A stretch of 64,000 nt of DNA from an uncultured Methylobacillus sp. GTDB taxonomy: Bacteria; Pseudomonadota; Gammaproteobacteria; Burkholderiales; Methylophilaceae. The position numbers and the translations under genes are program-made. Under the pieces are notes generated by a model. The model was not told the origin of the DNA. It did not search any database and worked only from the letters and a program-made list of their open reading frames with translations. The DNA is taken from NCBI GenBank assembly GCA_903824575.1, contig CAIJXJ010000170.1:1-64000 (forward strand), written 5' to 3'. Numbering within the stretch: the first letter of the stretch is position 1; each line of letters begins with the position of its first letter. This document shows, piece after piece, positions 46,843 through 52,998 of this stretch.

Positions 46843-48909
46843 ATGAATGCTCTGCTGAAAAAAATTATCTGGTTGCTGATCGTCGTGACGGGCGCTGCAG
46901 CCGTGGGCGGCATCGCCCTGAACCGGGGCGAGGAGATTAGCGCCTTGTGGTTTGTGGCAGCCGCGCTGTGCGTATATGCCCTTGCCTATCGCTTCTACGG
47001 CGCCTGGATAGCGGCGACGGTACTGGTGCTGGACGAAACCCGGGCGACCCCAGCAGAGCGCTTCGACAACGGCCGCGACTTCATGCCGACCAATCGCTGG
47101 ATCGTTTTTGGCCACCACTTCGCGGCGATCGCGGGGCCAGGGCCTCTGGTCGGCCCCACACTCGCGGCGCAGTTCGGCTATCTACCGGGGACGCTATGGA
47201 TTCTGGTCGGCGCGGTACTGGGCGGTTGTGTGCAGGACATGGTCACACTGTTCTTTTCCATGCGGCGCGACGGCCGCAGTCTGGGGCAAATGGCCAGGGA
47301 CGAACTGGGACCCGTCGGTGGTGCGGCGTCCCTGATTGGGACGTTGGCCATCATGATCATATTGATTGCGGTGTTGGGACTGGTCGTGGTCAACGCCATG
47401 AAGCACAGTCCGTGGGCGACTTCCACCGTGGCGTCAACGATACCGATTGCCATGCTGGTTGGCCTTTACATGCGAAATTTCCGCCCGGGGCGCGTACTGG
47501 AGGCCTCGGCCTTGGGTGTTGCGCTGCTGCTATTGGCGGTGGTGATGGGCGGCTGGATCGATCACAGTGCCTGGCGTGGGCTGTTTGACCAAGAAGGCCT
47601 GACACTGGCCTGGATGGTGATCGCCTATGGCTTTGCTGCCGCCATCCTGCCGGTATGGCTGCTGCTCGCTCCTCGCGATTATCTGTCCACCTATATAAAG
47701 CTCGGCACCATCCTCCTCCTGGCCATCGCAATTCTATTCTTGCAACCCACCATCAAGATGCCGGCGCTGACGCAATTCATCGATGGCAGCGGACCAATCT
47801 TCGGTGGCAAGCTGTTTCCGTTCGTTTTCATTACCATTGCCTGTGGTGCCATTTCCGGCTTCCACGCGCTGATCGCATCCGGCACCACCCCGAAGCTGCT
47901 GGCCAATGAACGTGACATCCGTCTGATCGGTTACGGTGGCATGGTACTGGAATCCTTCGTCGCCATCATGGCGCTGATCGCGGCCACAGTACTCGAACCC
48001 GGGGTCTATTTCGCTATCAACAGCCCGGCCGGTGTTGTGGGCAAGGAGGCCGTTGATGCGGTAGCCCGGATAAGCGCGTGGGGCTTTCCGGTCACGGTGG
48101 AACAGATGCAATTGCTCGCCAGCCAAATGGGCGAATCCAGTCTGTTCGCCCGCACCGGAGGAGCGCCATCGCTGGCTGTCGGCATGGCCAGCATCTTTGG
48201 TAGCGCATTTGGTGCGGGCATGCTGGCGTTGTGGTACCACTTTGCCATCATGTTCGAGGCCATCTTCATCCTGACCACCCTGGATGCCGGCACCCGGGTC
48301 GGGCGCTTCATGCTGCAGGACATGCTAGGCAATCTCTGGCCCAAGATGGGCGAGACTTCCTGGATGCCATCGGTGATGCTGACCAGCGCATTGGTAGTCG
48401 GCGCCTGGGGTTATTTCCTGTATATCGGTGTCATCGACCCCAACGGCGGCGTGAACCTGCTATGGCCGCTGTTCGGCATTGCCAACCAGATGCTGGCGGC
48501 AATTGCACTCTGTGTCGGCACTGGCATCCTGATCAAGTCCGGTCGCTTGAAGCACGCCTGGATCACCGGCGTGCCCCTGACTTGGCTCGTCATCGTCACC
48601 ACTACCGCCGCATGGGAGAAGATCACCAGCGCAGATATCCGCATCGGCTTCTTCGCCGCTGCGCGCGATCTGGACGTCAAACTGGCGAGCGGTCAACTAC
48701 CTGCGGCGAAGGCCGCCGTTGCGCCACAGCTGATTTTCAACCAGCAACTGGATGCCTGGCTGACGATATTCTTTGTCATCACGCTGTGGGTGATCGTGCT
48801 CGACATGCTGCGTATCGCTTCCCGCCACCTGTCTGGAAAACCGGTGCCGCCGGTGTCCGAATCGGCGCACATTCCCAGCAGGCTGGTAGAAGACTTTGCA
48901 CGCGACTGA
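46843..48909 (+). CDS. cstA: carbon starvation protein CstA family pyruvate/peptide transporter
   Basis: The 688-residue membrane protein with 16-18 helices matches CstA: FGHHFAAIAGPGPLVGPTLAAQ, LGGCVQDMVTLFFSMRRDGRS, CGAISGFHALIASGTTPKLL and TLDAGTRVGRFMLQD. CstA relatives import pyruvate or peptides in E. coli. It is divergent from tRNA-Ala. A methyltransferase gene and a YbdD-type gene follow closely, and CstA/BtsT proteins usually work with YbdD/YjiX small proteins. Confidence 0.94.
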   Translation: MNALLKKIIWLLIVVTGAAAVGGIALNRGEEISALWFVAAALCVYALAYRFYGAWIAATVLVLDETRATPAERFDNGRDFMPTNRWIVFGHHFAAIAGPGPLVGPTLAAQFGYLPGTLWILVGAVLGGCVQDMVTLFFSMRRDGRSLGQMARDELGPVGGAASLIGTLAIMIILIAVLGLVVVNAMKHSPWATSTVASTIPIAMLVGLYMRNFRPGRVLEASALGVALLLLAVVMGGWIDHSAWRGLFDQEGLTLAWMVIAYGFAAAILPVWLLLAPRDYLSTYIKLGTILLLAIAILFLQPTIKMPALTQFIDGSGPIFGGKLFPFVFITIACGAISGFHALIASGTTPKLLANERDIRLIGYGGMVLESFVAIMALIAATVLEPGVYFAINSPAGVVGKEAVDAVARISAWGFPVTVEQMQLLASQMGESSLFARTGGAPSLAVGMASIFGSAFGAGMLALWYHFAIMFEAIFILTTLDAGTRVGRFMLQDMLGNLWPKMGETSWMPSVMLTSALVVGAWGYFLYIGVIDPNGGVNLLWPLFGIANQMLAAIALCVGTGILIKSGRLKHAWITGVPLTWLVIVTTTAAWEKITSADIRIGFFAAARDLDVKLASGQLPAAKAAVAPQLIFNQQLDAWLTIFFVITLWVIVLDMLRIASRHLSGKPVPPVSESAHIPSRLVEDFARD

Positions 48910-48921
48910 GGCCTGCCACTG

Positions 48922-49659
48922 ATGCAATCATCCAAGGCTCTAACCGCACAACTGCTGGGAATGTTGCTGATCGCAATCCTGGCCGGGGCAATCCCCACGG
49001 TGCTGCACGGCGCCTGGCGCCTGGCCCTGCTCCAGGGGCTTGCTGCCGCCCTATTTTCCAGACCCCTTAAGCAACCGGCGTGGTGGATCCCCATTCACCT
49101 GCTTTTTCTGCCCGCAGCCCTCGCCCTCTTGACTCTGGAGTTGCCGGCCTGGCTCTATCTGCTGACGGCGCTATTGCTGTCACTGGTATTCTGGGGCACG
49201 ATCAAGGGCGACGTGCCGCTATTCCTGTCGTCCCCGGCCGTCACCGATGCATTGCATCAAATTCTTCAGCAGGAACACGCCAGCAGTTTGATCGATCTCG
49301 GCGCCGGCATCGGTTCGGTCGCCGTGCCGCTGGCACGACAGCAACCGAACCTGCAAGTCGAAGCCTGGGAATACGCTCCCATCCCCTGGCTGATCACTGC
49401 CTGGCGCAGTCGCAAGCTCTCCAATCTGCGTGTCGTACGGATGAGCCTGTGGCAATGCGAGTTATCCCATTGCGATGTGGTGTTCGCCTTCCTCTCCCCC
49501 GTTGTCATGCCACGACTGGGGGAAAAAGTACGGCGAGAGATGCATTCCGGCAGCCTGTTCGTTTCGTCCTCCTTCCCGCTGCCGGATTGGCAAGCTGAAA
49601 CGGTGATCGCTCTGACTGACCCCATGGCCACCAGACTCTATTGTTATCGGGTGCCATGA
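48922..49659 (+). CDS. membrane-anchored class I methyltransferase
   Basis: The 245-residue protein has three to four hydrophobic helices in residues 8-90, then a Rossmann methyltransferase-like domain with SSLIDLGAGIGSVAVPLARQQ as the SAM-binding motif, AWEYAPIPWLITAW and CDVVFAFLSPVVMPRL. It lies 13 bases after cstA and overlaps the YbdD-type gene. The substrate is unknown. The insertion between cstA and its small partner gene is notable. Confidence 0.8.
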   Translation: MQSSKALTAQLLGMLLIAILAGAIPTVLHGAWRLALLQGLAAALFSRPLKQPAWWIPIHLLFLPAALALLTLELPAWLYLLTALLLSLVFWGTIKGDVPLFLSSPAVTDALHQILQQEHASSLIDLGAGIGSVAVPLARQQPNLQVEAWEYAPIPWLITAWRSRKLSNLRVVRMSLWQCELSHCDVVFAFLSPVVMPRLGEKVRREMHSGSLFVSSSFPLPDWQAETVIALTDPMATRLYCYRVP

Positions 49660-49847
49660 TGAAATCCATCAGGCTCAAATTGCAACAACTGTGGCATGGC
49701 CTGCGCCGTCTGAGTGGCGATGATGCCTATGAACGCTACCTGGCGCACTGTTTGGCACATCATGGTGAATCAACGCCGCTGACGCGTGATGCATTCTTCA
49801 AACAGTGGCAAGATGAAAAATGGAAAGGCGTGAAACGCTGCTGCTGA
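49659..49847 (+). CDS. YbdD/YjiX-family small protein (DUF466)
   Basis: The 62-residue protein has the family pattern LQQLWHGLRRLSGDDAYERYLAHCLAHH followed by LTRDAFFKQWQDEKWKGVKRCC, ending in two Cys. YbdD and YjiX are small partners of CstA and BtsT pyruvate transporters. The ATG at 49659 overlaps the methyltransferase stop by one base; 49656 is an in-frame alternative. Confidence 0.88.
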   Translation: MKSIRLKLQQLWHGLRRLSGDDAYERYLAHCLAHHGESTPLTRDAFFKQWQDEKWKGVKRCC

Positions 49848-49862
49848 TATTTTTCTGCGACC

Positions 49863-49888
49863 AAATTTGTCATTCGCTGACAAATTTT
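49863..49888. terminator. AT-rich perfect hairpin after the cstA operon
   Basis: AAATTTGTCA-TTCGC-TGACAAATTT is a perfect 10-bp stem 16 bases after the YbdD stop, followed only by TGCGG. It may be a weak terminator or an operator. Confidence 0.45.
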
Positions 49889-50228
49889 GCGGGGTTCCTG
49901 CAAATATTGTTGGAATTCAGGTAAGGAAGCAACATCCGCAAGAGGTCGGCAATCCAGCACCGGATAAATTAAAGACTATCTCATCCGTCCAAACCACCAA
50001 CACGACCATTCAAGGATCATGACCTGGAGGCCAATGTTGATGCGGTTTTGGTCCTGATTTTTCCAACAATTTGGTAGATGCCTTAAGAGGCCGGTAAAGC
50101 GATTAAGGTCTGACTGGCACGGTTCATGCTGAAGCATCACGGTCTCCGCCTTACAAACGACACCGTATATTTATGAGTGCCTGACGAATTGTATCGCTGA
50201 TGAAGCACTTCAACCCTTAACAAACTAT
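49889..50228. other. non-coding stretch before the Slam cargo gene
   Basis: About 340 bases separate the cstA operon from the exported protein gene. I find no gene, RNA or clear sigma-70 promoter that I can defend; the promoter of the cargo gene must lie here. Confidence 0.4.
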
Positions 50229-50241
50229 AAGGATGATCATG

Positions 50242-50904
50242 ATGAACAAGACTGCTCTTACCATTGCCATACTCGGTTCCATTTTCTCAGTTTCCGCCAT
50301 CGCTGATGGCCATGGTTCCTGGGGCAACTGGGTTGCAACTGCCGGCACCACTGTACACAACGAAGCCAATGAGGTGAACGAGGTTCATACACCAAAAGCC
50401 CCGACGGCTTACGTTCCCGCAGGCACTTCCAACTATGCTGGCAGCACACTTGCCCTGATCAGCGACAGCGGCACCGGCACCACGGTCAAGTCCGTAGCCA
50501 CCGGCGCCGTGGCTCTGGCTGTTACCTTCAGCGGCACCGGCGCCACCACTGAAACCGGCTCCATCACCGGCCTGACAGGTACCGCCGGCGCCAAGCTGGG
50601 TGACCTGGCCTTCACCGCTACTGGCCTGAATGGCGATTTCAAGGGCACCGTGACGTCTGTGAATTACGCAGTGGCAGCCGTGATTCCAGCAACAGCAACC
50701 ACGCGCGCCATCGCACCAGGCACCGGCACCATCAGCGGCGAGCTGTCGAAGGCTGTCGTAGTGACTCCGGCTATCGCTGCCACGACAACCACTGCAGCGG
50801 TTCCGGCCGTGGTATCGGCACCATTGTCCGTCAACGGTTCGTGGAACTTTACTGCCCTACCAACGCTGAAGGCTAGCGGCACTTTTGCCGGCGTGAAACA
50901 ATAA
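50242..50904 (+). CDS. exported beta-rich protein, probable Slam/T11SS cargo
   Basis: The protein of about 220 residues starts with a signal peptide (MNKTALTIAILGSIFSVSAI, cleavage near SAIADG), with no lipobox. After a short His/Trp/Asn-rich start, the mature chain is a run of strand-like segments with Gly/Thr turns: SNYAGSTLAL, GAVALAVTFSGTG, TGSITGLTG, LAFTATGLNGDFKGTVTS, TGTISGEL, VNGSWNFTALP and the end KASGTFAGVKQ. That order resembles the C-terminal eight-stranded barrel of TbpB-like proteins that Slam exports. A low-complexity Ala/Thr/Val/Pro insert lies at about residues 145-190. AAGGA lies eight bases before this ATG. The ligand is unknown. Confidence 0.65.
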   Translation: MNKTALTIAILGSIFSVSAIADGHGSWGNWVATAGTTVHNEANEVNEVHTPKAPTAYVPAGTSNYAGSTLALISDSGTGTTVKSVATGAVALAVTFSGTGATTETGSITGLTGTAGAKLGDLAFTATGLNGDFKGTVTSVNYAVAAVIPATATTRAIAPGTGTISGELSKAVVVTPAIAATTTTAAVPAVVSAPLSVNGSWNFTALPTLKASGTFAGVKQ

Positions 50905-50924
50905 TCGCTTAATGCTGGAGACTC

Positions 50925-50946
50925 AAGGGCGCTTAACGGCGCCCTT
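50925..50946 (+). promoter_or_regulatory. intergenic hairpin between cargo and Slam genes
   Basis: The perfect 8-bp stem AAGGGCGC/GCGCCCTT has a TTAACG loop and lacks a T tract. It lies 20 bases after the cargo stop. It could protect the cargo mRNA 3' end or attenuate transcription into the downstream gene. Confidence 0.5.
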
Positions 50947-50975
50947 AGTCTTGTCTGCTAGACATTGAGAATCTC

Positions 50976-52238
50976 TTGTCACCAAAAATATTAATCTTAG
51001 CGCTTTTATTCGGCCTTTGTTCTAGCCACGTTACCATGGCCGCCGAGGCAAATTCAGTTCGATCCTATTGCAGCGAGGCAGCCAGCTTGCCCGTTGACGC
51101 CAGCAAATCCGACAGCCTTTATGTCTCAGGCGAGTGTGCTCTCGAGCACAAACAATACCAGGCTGCCATCCAATTATTCTCCGAACTGCTCGGCCTCGAA
51201 TTCAACCCCGTTTACCAGGCAGAGCTTGGACGGGCCTACCTGGGCGCGCAACAGTACGAACGGGCAAGGGAGCAGTTCCTGCTGGCACTACAAAGCAATC
51301 CGCCAGACGATGCACGCAAACTGCTACTCATTTTCATCCAAATGGCGGAGCAGCAAAGAACGCAGGCCAGGGACTGGTTCGCGTCGGTCTCGATCAGCGC
51401 CATACACGACACCAACGCCAACAACGGCCCAAAAAATGCCAACGTCACACTCTTCAACCTGCCCTTCATCATGAACGAGGTCAGCATGCCAAAGAGCGAC
51501 TGGGCCACGCACGCCCAAGCCTCAGCGGTTCAGAACAAGGCCCTGAACAACACCGTCTCTTGGCAGACGGACGCCTCCGTTGACCTATTGGACTATACGA
51601 CTTACCACAGTTCCAATACCCGCCAGATCGCCGTCGATAGCGGCCCCCACCTGGCCATCAAGAGCGGCGTGATGGATCTCTATCTGCCGGCAGGCATGAC
51701 CAGGATGACGCTAGGAGGGATGGGCTACACCACGCAGGCCTCTTTCTTGCCCCAGATCAGCCATCTGGTCACCAAGTCTGACTTGCTAGTTTATTCCGCC
51801 GGGCTCACCCGCACCCTGTACGACACCAATACGCCAAGAGATGTGACCAGCAGCAGCCTGGGGTTATCCTGGCAGCACGTCCTGGGCAATCTCTGGACAG
51901 TCGCGCCCTTGGTCAGGATCACGTCCGAGCACGCCAGGTCAAATTCATTTGATAATTTCGCCACGACCGCAGGGCTCAGCCTGAGTGGCAATCTGCCCTG
52001 GGGCCTGCGCTTCAGCGCTTCCAGCCTCTATACCTGGGCAAACTACAAGGCTCCAGAGGCGTGGGCCAGCATGCCGAGACGGGACATCAGGAGGAATAAT
52101 AGCCTGTCCCTCACCAAGGACCTTGGTGGTGGATACTACGCCAGCCTGTCATTTGCCGATCTGGATACCAGTTCGAATCTGGAGCTTTACGCGACCGCCA
52201 AACAGCAATTCCAGCTTCAGATCAGCAAGGCATTCTGA
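50976..52238 (+). CDS. Slam-like outer membrane translocator (TPR + DUF560 barrel)
   Basis: The 420-residue protein starts with a signal peptide ending near TMAAEA. Residues 35-125 form TPR-like helices (SGECALEHKQYQAAIQLF, LGRAYLGAQQYERAREQFLLAL). From ARDWFASVSISAIHDTNANN (about residue 135) onward it is an alternating beta-barrel pattern of about 14 strands ending in Phe (LQISKAF), the outer membrane barrel signature. This is the plan of Slam proteins, which move TbpB-type cargo across the outer membrane (type XI secretion). The start is TTG with a weak site; upstream non-ATG starts are possible. It follows the cargo gene by 71 bases. Confidence 0.8.
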   Translation: MSPKILILALLFGLCSSHVTMAAEANSVRSYCSEAASLPVDASKSDSLYVSGECALEHKQYQAAIQLFSELLGLEFNPVYQAELGRAYLGAQQYERAREQFLLALQSNPPDDARKLLLIFIQMAEQQRTQARDWFASVSISAIHDTNANNGPKNANVTLFNLPFIMNEVSMPKSDWATHAQASAVQNKALNNTVSWQTDASVDLLDYTTYHSSNTRQIAVDSGPHLAIKSGVMDLYLPAGMTRMTLGGMGYTTQASFLPQISHLVTKSDLLVYSAGLTRTLYDTNTPRDVTSSSLGLSWQHVLGNLWTVAPLVRITSEHARSNSFDNFATTAGLSLSGNLPWGLRFSASSLYTWANYKAPEAWASMPRRDIRRNNSLSLTKDLGGGYYASLSFADLDTSSNLELYATAKQQFQLQISKAF

Positions 52239-52294
52239 GCTGCAAAGACAAAACACCTCCTGCACTTGATGCCCTCTCAGTTCTTGCAAACAAA

Positions 52295-52331
52295 AAAATG
52301 CCCCGAGACATTACCAGCCACGAGGCATTTT
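52295..52331. terminator. bidirectional terminator between slam-like gene and eda
   Basis: The stem AAAATGCC/GGCATTTT has a 21-base loop and A/T tracts on both sides. It lies downstream of both convergent transcription units. Confidence 0.75.
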
Positions 52332-52353
52332 CAATCAGACACTCAGATTCAGA

Positions 52354-52998
52354 TCAGCGTGGCAATGCAGCCGCTTCGCGCGCCAGTTGCGTGATCAGCG
52401 CCCAATCACCTCTGGCCATCGCATCGCCCGGGGTCAACCAGGAACCGCCCACTACCACCACGTTGGACAGCGCCAGAAGTTGAGGGGCATTTTCCAGCGA
52501 TACACCACCGGTAGGACAGAACTTGATGTCGGCAAAAGGACCAGACCAGGCCTTGAGCAGATTCGGCCCACCCGCTTGCATGGCGGGGAAGAACTTGAGT
52601 TCGGTATAGCCGTCTTCCATCGCCAACATGATTTCGCTGCCTGTTGCAACGCCTGGCAGCAAAGGCAAATCAAGCTCACGACAGGCGAGCCCTACCGCAC
52701 TGGTATAGCCGGGGCTGACGCCAAAACGGGCTCCGGCCGCCTTGGCCGCCTTAGCGTCGCTCGCCGAACGGATAGTACCGGCACCGACAATGGCTTCCGG
52801 TACCTCAGCGACAATAGCACGCATGCAGTCCAGCGCCACCTTGGTTCGCAACGTGATTTCCAGCATGCGGATACCACCGGCGACCAAGGCGCGGGCCATG
52901 GGTACGGCGTGTGCCACGTCGTTCAACACGATCACCGGGATTACAGAGGCGTCCAGCATGACCTGCAAGGAGGTCAGTTTGTCGATTACGGCTGCCAT
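52354..52998 (-). CDS. eda: 2-keto-3-deoxy-6-phosphogluconate aldolase
   Basis: The 214-residue class I aldolase shows VIPVIVLNDVAHAVPMARAL, IVGAGTIRSASDAKAA, and the Schiff-base lysine in ELKFFPAMQAGG followed by FCPTGGVSLEN. It splits KDPG into pyruvate and glyceraldehyde-3-phosphate. The ATG lies 13 bases inside the end of edd, so the two are coupled. Confidence 0.97.
   Translation of the reverse strand: MAAVIDKLTSLQVMLDASVIPVIVLNDVAHAVPMARALVAGGIRMLEITLRTKVALDCMRAIVAEVPEAIVGAGTIRSASDAKAAKAAGARFGVSPGYTSAVGLACRELDLPLLPGVATGSEIMLAMEDGYTELKFFPAMQAGGPNLLKAWSGPFADIKFCPTGGVSLENAPQLLALSNVVVVGGSWLTPGDAMARGDWALITQLAREAAALPR

Follow-up and report, generated by a model that had tools for sequence, protein, structure and literature searches.

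A candidate type 11 secretion pair with a cysteine-free putative cargo in an uncultured Methylobacillus species

We analyzed a window of 64,000 nucleotides from the draft genome of an uncultured Methylobacillus species (3.66 Mb in 315 contigs). The window carries two neighboring plus-strand genes, here called gene 1 and gene 2, that look like a putative cargo followed by the outer-membrane barrel of a type 11 secretion system. The downstream genes eda, edd and lgt are in opposed orientation. See Table 1 for the coordinates of all features.

Table 1. Features of the candidate secretion pair and its surroundings (window coordinates)
Feature	Coordinates	Strand	Remarks
cstA	46843-48909		upstream of the pair
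Methyltransferase-like gene	48922-49659		upstream of the pair; best Pfam match just under cut-off
68-aa ORF	49641-49847		upstream of the pair
Stretch absent from two congeners	49848..52355	.	holds the pair and about 394 bp upstream of it; between the 68-aa ORF and eda
Gene 1, candidate cargo	50242..50904	+	220 aa, exported-looking, Cys-free, ends SGTFAGVKQ
Terminator-like hairpin between cargo and barrel	50925..50946	+	9 pairs, 6 G-C, weak T-rich tail
Gene 2, type 11 secretion outer-membrane protein (Slam/DUF560, SlipAM)	50976..52238	+	420 aa
SlipAM (PF04575) barrel domain of gene 2	51375..52235	+	full profile, 1-288

Gene 2 is almost certainly a type 11 outer-membrane protein. It matches the SlipAM profile (PF04575) at 26.7 bits against a cut-off of 22, over profile positions 1-288 of 288, and is the only SlipAM match in its own genome; 14 control genomes gave none. 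It also matches the TPR_2 (28.6 bits, cut-off 27) and TPR_19 (25.2 bits, cut-off 25) families. The start codon is TTG, and no strong ribosome site was seen there by eye. The N-terminus is signal-peptide-like by eye, C15 is preceded by leucine, so there is no lipobox, and the last residue is phenylalanine. An AlphaFold2 model built from a 26-row alignment reached a pLDDT of 89.3 and shows helices over residues 22-131, then 14 long strands (134-145, 175-189, 194-207, 215-228, 239-246, 249-257, 269-282, 290-303, 307-320, 327-340, 344-360, 367-384, 387-400 and 407-419), a count that excludes the shorter strands 156-159, 162-165, 233-236 and 260-264. Residues D145, N147 and S400 are invariant across the 26 aligned relatives. 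A VIA-align search with the model indicates that the best structural equivalents are CymA, with a Z score of 22.7 (R.M.S.D. 3.1, 269 residues aligned), and OmpG, with a Z score of 21.4; the other barrels scored at most 17.1. CymA and OmpG are 14-strand barrels. No Slam structure was among the VIA-align or Foldseek matches listed for gene 2, an absence to which we attach no weight. The initial annotation had proposed both open reading frames, with a signal peptide, TPR helices and a terminal phenylalanine in gene 2 and an exported, lipobox-free product ending SGTFAGVKQ in gene 1. These features are all present, the signal peptides as judged by eye. Its proposed DUF560/Slam match was likewise borne out by the SlipAM score, and the prediction of a 14-strand barrel, which could have failed, did not.

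The gene 1 protein is rich in Gly, Ala, Ser, Thr, Val and Asn. Its N-terminus, MNKTALTIAILGSIFSVSAIA/DG with the slash at the apparent cleavage site, is type I signal peptide-like by eye, and further in-frame ATG codons lie at 50233 and 50239. The signal peptide, again by eye, has no lipobox and the whole protein has zero cysteines; without cysteine it cannot be lipidated. Gene 1 thus combines the features by which we recognize a soluble cargo, namely a lipobox-free signal peptide and an adjacent barrel gene on the same strand. Its codon adaptation index of 0.583 is like that of its neighbors and exceeds, by a modest margin, the 0.417-0.557 of its two other frames and the three opposite-strand frames. 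A strand test based on hydrophobic alternation gave a z of 0.94 for gene 1 and -0.21 to 2.38 for five TbpB-type cargos, and so has no discriminating value.

By sequence comparison, gene 1 is an orphan. No family was matched at E ≤ 1 in Pfam, including TbpB_B_D and FHBP_C, or in NCBIfam, and a search of PDB sequences gave no family, with OmpU (E 0.34) and OspA (E 0.88) as the only matches. Among 61 relatives, the sole homologue (1/61) was gene 1 itself, and none was found on plasmids. A two-row cargo profile matched 2 of 187 family genomes, both being the profile's own members. At E ≤ 0.01 a match occurred in 6 of 399 order genomes, one being gene 1 itself and the other five weak and partial (16.7-19.7 bits), two of them with internal stops. 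An HMM of five TbpB-type domains scored gene 1 at 18.6 bits, a value reached by 234 of 1000 shuffles of the same composition (mean 16.3, sd 3.4), and the reversed sequence scored 20.2. Aligned by hhalign to the TbpB-type domains, the two-row cargo profile had a probability of 0.2 per cent. An AlphaFold model from the two-row alignment had a pLDDT of 28 and is uninformative either way; the A9 alignment was passed over as input because the TbpB-type rows that it holds would have fed in the answer. With no Pfam match, a profile score within the range of shuffles and a model of such low confidence, the TbpB-like cargo fold suggested by the initial annotation gained no support.

Next, we compared the C-terminal end of gene 1 with those of other cargos. 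From six cargos of related pairs, including one on plasmid pLA3, we wrote a pattern, after gene 1 had been seen, that consists of G, an optional residue, F/L/V, any residue, G/A, an optional residue, K/R, an optional Q/R and the stop. It occurs at 11 of 1088 distinct ORF ends, which are the six source cargos, gene 1, L057 (which looks by eye like a further TbpB-type cargo) and three more, two of which resemble shadow frames. Any given ORF would therefore match by chance at a rate of a few per thousand. The gene 1 end is cargo-like by this pattern, which is weak evidence given that the pattern postdates sight of gene 1, and the Novimethylophilus cargo beside the related barrel L003 fails it. 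An earlier, narrower pattern, run over 189 ORFs of the window and 791 of the loci, picked out gene 1 only; that count omitted ORFs cut by locus ends and was replaced by the count over 1088 ends. In a full-length alignment of the cargos the C-termini failed to line up; they did line up when the C-terminal parts were aligned by themselves, a result not counted as evidence. We make no claim that gene 1 is a TbpB_B_D member; our claim, which we consider probable from its position and C-terminal end, is that it functions like a type 11 cargo.

The pair lies in a stretch of DNA that two congeners, G001 and G002, do not have. Both keep the flanks, with eda 88-91% and cstA 87-89% identical, and the pair is absent. 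The DNA alignment to G001 ends at 49847 and restarts at 52356, with ~60 nt at that place in G001, and the same site in G002 holds about 670 nt of different sequence. Neither congener has a gene 1 match at E ≤ 0.001 (G001 is 85% complete). GC content is 0.548 in the 2.5-kb stretch and 0.550 in the window, and the genome holds no second copy of 49848-52355. The simplest reading is gain, and the pair was probably acquired recently in the window lineage; loss from both congeners is a possible alternative. Among the three species compared at the site between the small ORF and eda (window, L080 and L082), three different contents were seen. Five neighboring genes were checked, and none is a TonB receptor or polysaccharide synthase. 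Both this missing stretch and the intergenic hairpin described below go beyond the initial annotation.

Barrel relatives were searched for at several taxonomic depths. A single-protein search of 84,980 species genomes confirmed 0 of 113 pattern matches, and a two-row barrel profile confirmed 1 of 137 in the species genomes, the Novimethylophilus locus. In whole-genome searches, with the own genome counted throughout, relatives were found in 14 of 61 relatives (E ≤ 0.001), 3 of 187 family genomes (1e-7), 21 of 399 order genomes (two-row profile, 1e-8) and 8 of 369 class genomes (1e-9). On plasmids, 1 of 72,556 records carried a relative of the barrel. The SlipAM profile itself matched in 30 of the 187 family genomes, 28 over the cut-off; one locus was taken per genome, and second matches in two genomes were left out.

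The genes beside these barrels are not uniform. Neighbor labels were assigned by eye, save for the cargo and FecR proteins scanned against Pfam and the tblastn counts. By tblastn, with flanks of up to 1.5 kb, lolA lies beside the barrel in 23 of the 30 family SlipAM loci, a FecR-domain protein in 12 and rarA in 11; the FecR query was taken from L010 and passes the Pfam FecR cut-off. The family loci concerned are L010, L023, L024, L026, L028-L031, L034-L036, L039 and L045, and a barrel-FecR pairing was also seen by eye in other families (L018, L054, L065, L085, L087-L089). The word FecR is absent from the main text of PMC12282271. It is possible that FecR-domain exported proteins beside barrels are an unrecognised cargo class.

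A cargo lies directly upstream of the barrel in L003, L020, L021, L022, L050, L055 and the plasmid pLA3 pair. The TbpB_B_D cut-off of 26 bits is passed by the upstream cargos of L021 (39.0), L022 (35.2) and L055 (77.5), and those of L020 (24.0) and L050 (20.9) fall below it. A tree of 39 barrels splits, with support of 100/99, into 22 rows that are mostly FecR-linked and 17 rows that include gene 2, all five of the barrels that have a TbpB-type cargo and a group with a downstream exported neighbor. Among these 17 rows, gene 2 joins L050, L049 and L051 with support of 92/93; its branch is long (2.05), which makes the precise placement uncertain. By eye, the upstream gene is a TbpB-type cargo in L050 and a FecR-like protein in L049, with nothing recognised in L051. 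The exported neighbor is downstream of the barrel in the related group L004, L016, L052, L086 and L071. Seen by eye, the downstream exported protein of L004, L016, L052, L070 and L086 has a Trp/Gly-rich start, and some of these loci have a transglutaminase-like cysteine peptidase gene nearby. A Pfam scan of the L052 exported protein gave no match.

The 71-nt gap that separates the two genes has a folding energy of -31.4 kcal/mol (z -4.8) and holds the terminator-like hairpin. A consensus terminator scan over 3 kb found 4 sites versus 3.1 in shuffles, which alone is not above chance. Gap hairpins recur among the cargo-barrel pairs. Five of the six pairs with a gap of at least 40 nt have one (the window, L003, L020, L021 and L022; L050 has none), or five of eight overall, as L055, with overlapping genes, and pLA3, with a 1-nt gap, leave no room. 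L021 and L022 are closely related, and the hairpin tail in the window is weaker than those of the other pairs. As controls, we used 74 co-directional gaps of 30-200 nt from approximate gene models, 13 of which had a hairpin. Six of these 13 were the cargo-barrel pairs themselves, one locus being present twice; removing these six, together with a single gap for L050 that is assumed to be in the set of 74, left 7 of 67, and four of the seven are lolA-barrel gaps. The enrichment has a one-sided Fisher p of 0.0003, which becomes 0.008 when the window pair is left out and the two closely related pairs are counted as one. The hairpin suggests either excess transcription of the cargo or a separate promoter for the barrel, and on this feature the two genes may be two transcription units. 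The terms terminator, operon and attenuat- are absent from the main text of PMC12282271. No Fur box was found in the window with up to 3 mismatches, and the only two RNA family matches near the pair scored far below the gathering scores.

In 2021, DUF560 proteins were shown to secrete cargo that is soluble and not lipidated, and the same network includes environmental members (PMC8406197). Soluble cargo and environmental type 11 systems were also published in PMC12282271. That study predicts 2,687 cargos, composed of an effector, a pedestal and an eight-strand barrel, and notes links to single-carbon metabolism and methylotrophy. Cargo secretion has been verified for seven type 11 outer-membrane proteins, all of the animal-associated cluster 1 (PMC12282271). 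Among the seven papers listed in a literature search on the family and type 11 secretion, none contains the word Methylophilaceae. The initial annotation had called gene 1 a novel non-lipidated cargo. The lack of cysteine stands and the sequence itself is new, but a cargo of this kind has been known since 2021 (PMC8406197). The novelty is the particular sequence, not the kind of system, and the cargo is unusually diverged.

Four systems are the closest points of comparison. In TXISS subcluster 1B, HrpB/HrpC of Xenorhabdus nematophila and the hemophilin system likewise pair a DUF560 barrel with a neighboring single-domain cargo that is soluble, processed by signal peptidase I and free of a lipid anchor (PMC8406197). 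However, HrpC has a TbpB_B_D domain and a locus with TonB and a heme receptor (PMC8406197), whereas gene 1 has no TbpB_B_D match and no TonB receptor is among the five neighbors checked. Slam1 and Slam2 of Neisseria share the N-terminal TPR domain and the predicted 14-strand DUF560 barrel (PMC5449769, PMC9090332), the layout given for Slams in general (PMC5449769), but their cargos are surface lipoproteins (PMC5449769, PMC9090332), unlike the Cys-free candidate here. The pLA3 pair of Novosphingobium pentaromativorans US6-1 (WP_007014583.1 / WP_039858116.1) is environmental (mud sediment) and has its cargo, which ends GKQ, directly upstream of a barrel 22.4% identical to gene 2 over 90%. Unlike gene 1, that cargo carries a transferrin-binding-protein-like annotation and contains a lipobox-like LSAC, and 1 nt separates the genes. 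Novimethylophilus kurashikiensis La2-4 (L003/L092), of the same family, has a 224-aa, exported-looking, Cys-free protein upstream and a hairpin in the gap; however, its barrel is 27-30% identical and not over the threshold in the SlipAM search, and its cargo ends SGTATRK. The initial annotation's environmental-type betaproteobacterial host agrees with this comparison, as we infer the same-family genome to be Novimethylophilus kurashikiensis, of the Methylophilaceae.

We consider it probable that the two genes form a self-contained type 11 secretion pair, with gene 1 as cargo and gene 2 as pore. A first, unlikely alternative is that gene 2 is a type 11 translocon and gene 1 an independent exported surface or filler protein, the true cargo being elsewhere or lost. 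The hairpin separates the genes, gene 1 is an orphan with no detectable homology to known cargo beyond composition, and the exported neighbors of related barrels differ in type and in the side on which they lie, all of which would fit independence. However, both genes lie inside one 2.5-kb indel, the same gene order occurs in pairs with TbpB-type cargo, and gap hairpins also occur in four of the five pairs used for comparison (L003, L020, L021 and L022; not L050). Furthermore, the C-terminal end fits the cargo pattern, and the genome has no SlipAM match other than gene 2. From these sequence features, gene 1 is probably the cargo of gene 2.

A second alternative, which we also rate as unlikely, keeps gene 1 as a genuine type 11 cargo and gives it a C-terminal domain unlike the TbpB eight-strand barrel, so that it would be a new cargo fold recognised by a short C-terminal signal. 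The resemblance to known cargos is limited to the C-terminal end, and profile similarity is not above shuffles, as that reading would have it. However, missing similarity is weak evidence, because the sequence is of low complexity and such domains diverge; the L020 and L050 cargos also fall short of the TbpB_B_D cut-off. More speculatively, and to our minds improbably, the terminator of environmental pairs could be a dosage switch giving many cargos per pore, and gene 1 could have kept only its C-terminal export signal, the rest having drifted to, or being, a non-TbpB fold. Finally, it is very improbable that gene 2 is a PelB/BcsC-like TPR-barrel pore for polysaccharide or other export: PelB and BcsC lead a plain Foldseek search at a TM of about 0.45, which fits their shared TPR-plus-barrel layout, but gene 2 is over the SlipAM cut-off, has 14 strands, is placed by VIA-align nearest CymA and OmpG, above all other barrels listed, and has no polysaccharide synthase among the five neighbors checked.

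Under the preferred reading of cargo and pore, the gene 1 product, with its putative Sec signal peptide, would cross the inner membrane and be cleaved. Periplasmic holding by the chaperone Skp has been shown for the lipoproteins TbpB and HpuA (PMC9090332), and by analogy the gene 1 product would remain unfolded in this compartment, probably bound to a chaperone for which we infer Skp as an example. The TPR/barrel protein would then recognise its C-terminal end and move it across the outer membrane. It would likely be released in soluble form, because lacking cysteine it has no lipid anchor. The hairpin would, we suggest, allow more transcription of cargo than of pore, and the cassette was probably gained as a unit.

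Metal or cofactor scavenging is a common theme of the type 11 family. In most respects, the pair is one more case of a widespread secretion system known from many bacteria. As a methylotroph pair whose cargo is far from all those compared, it could test how little of a cargo suffices for export.
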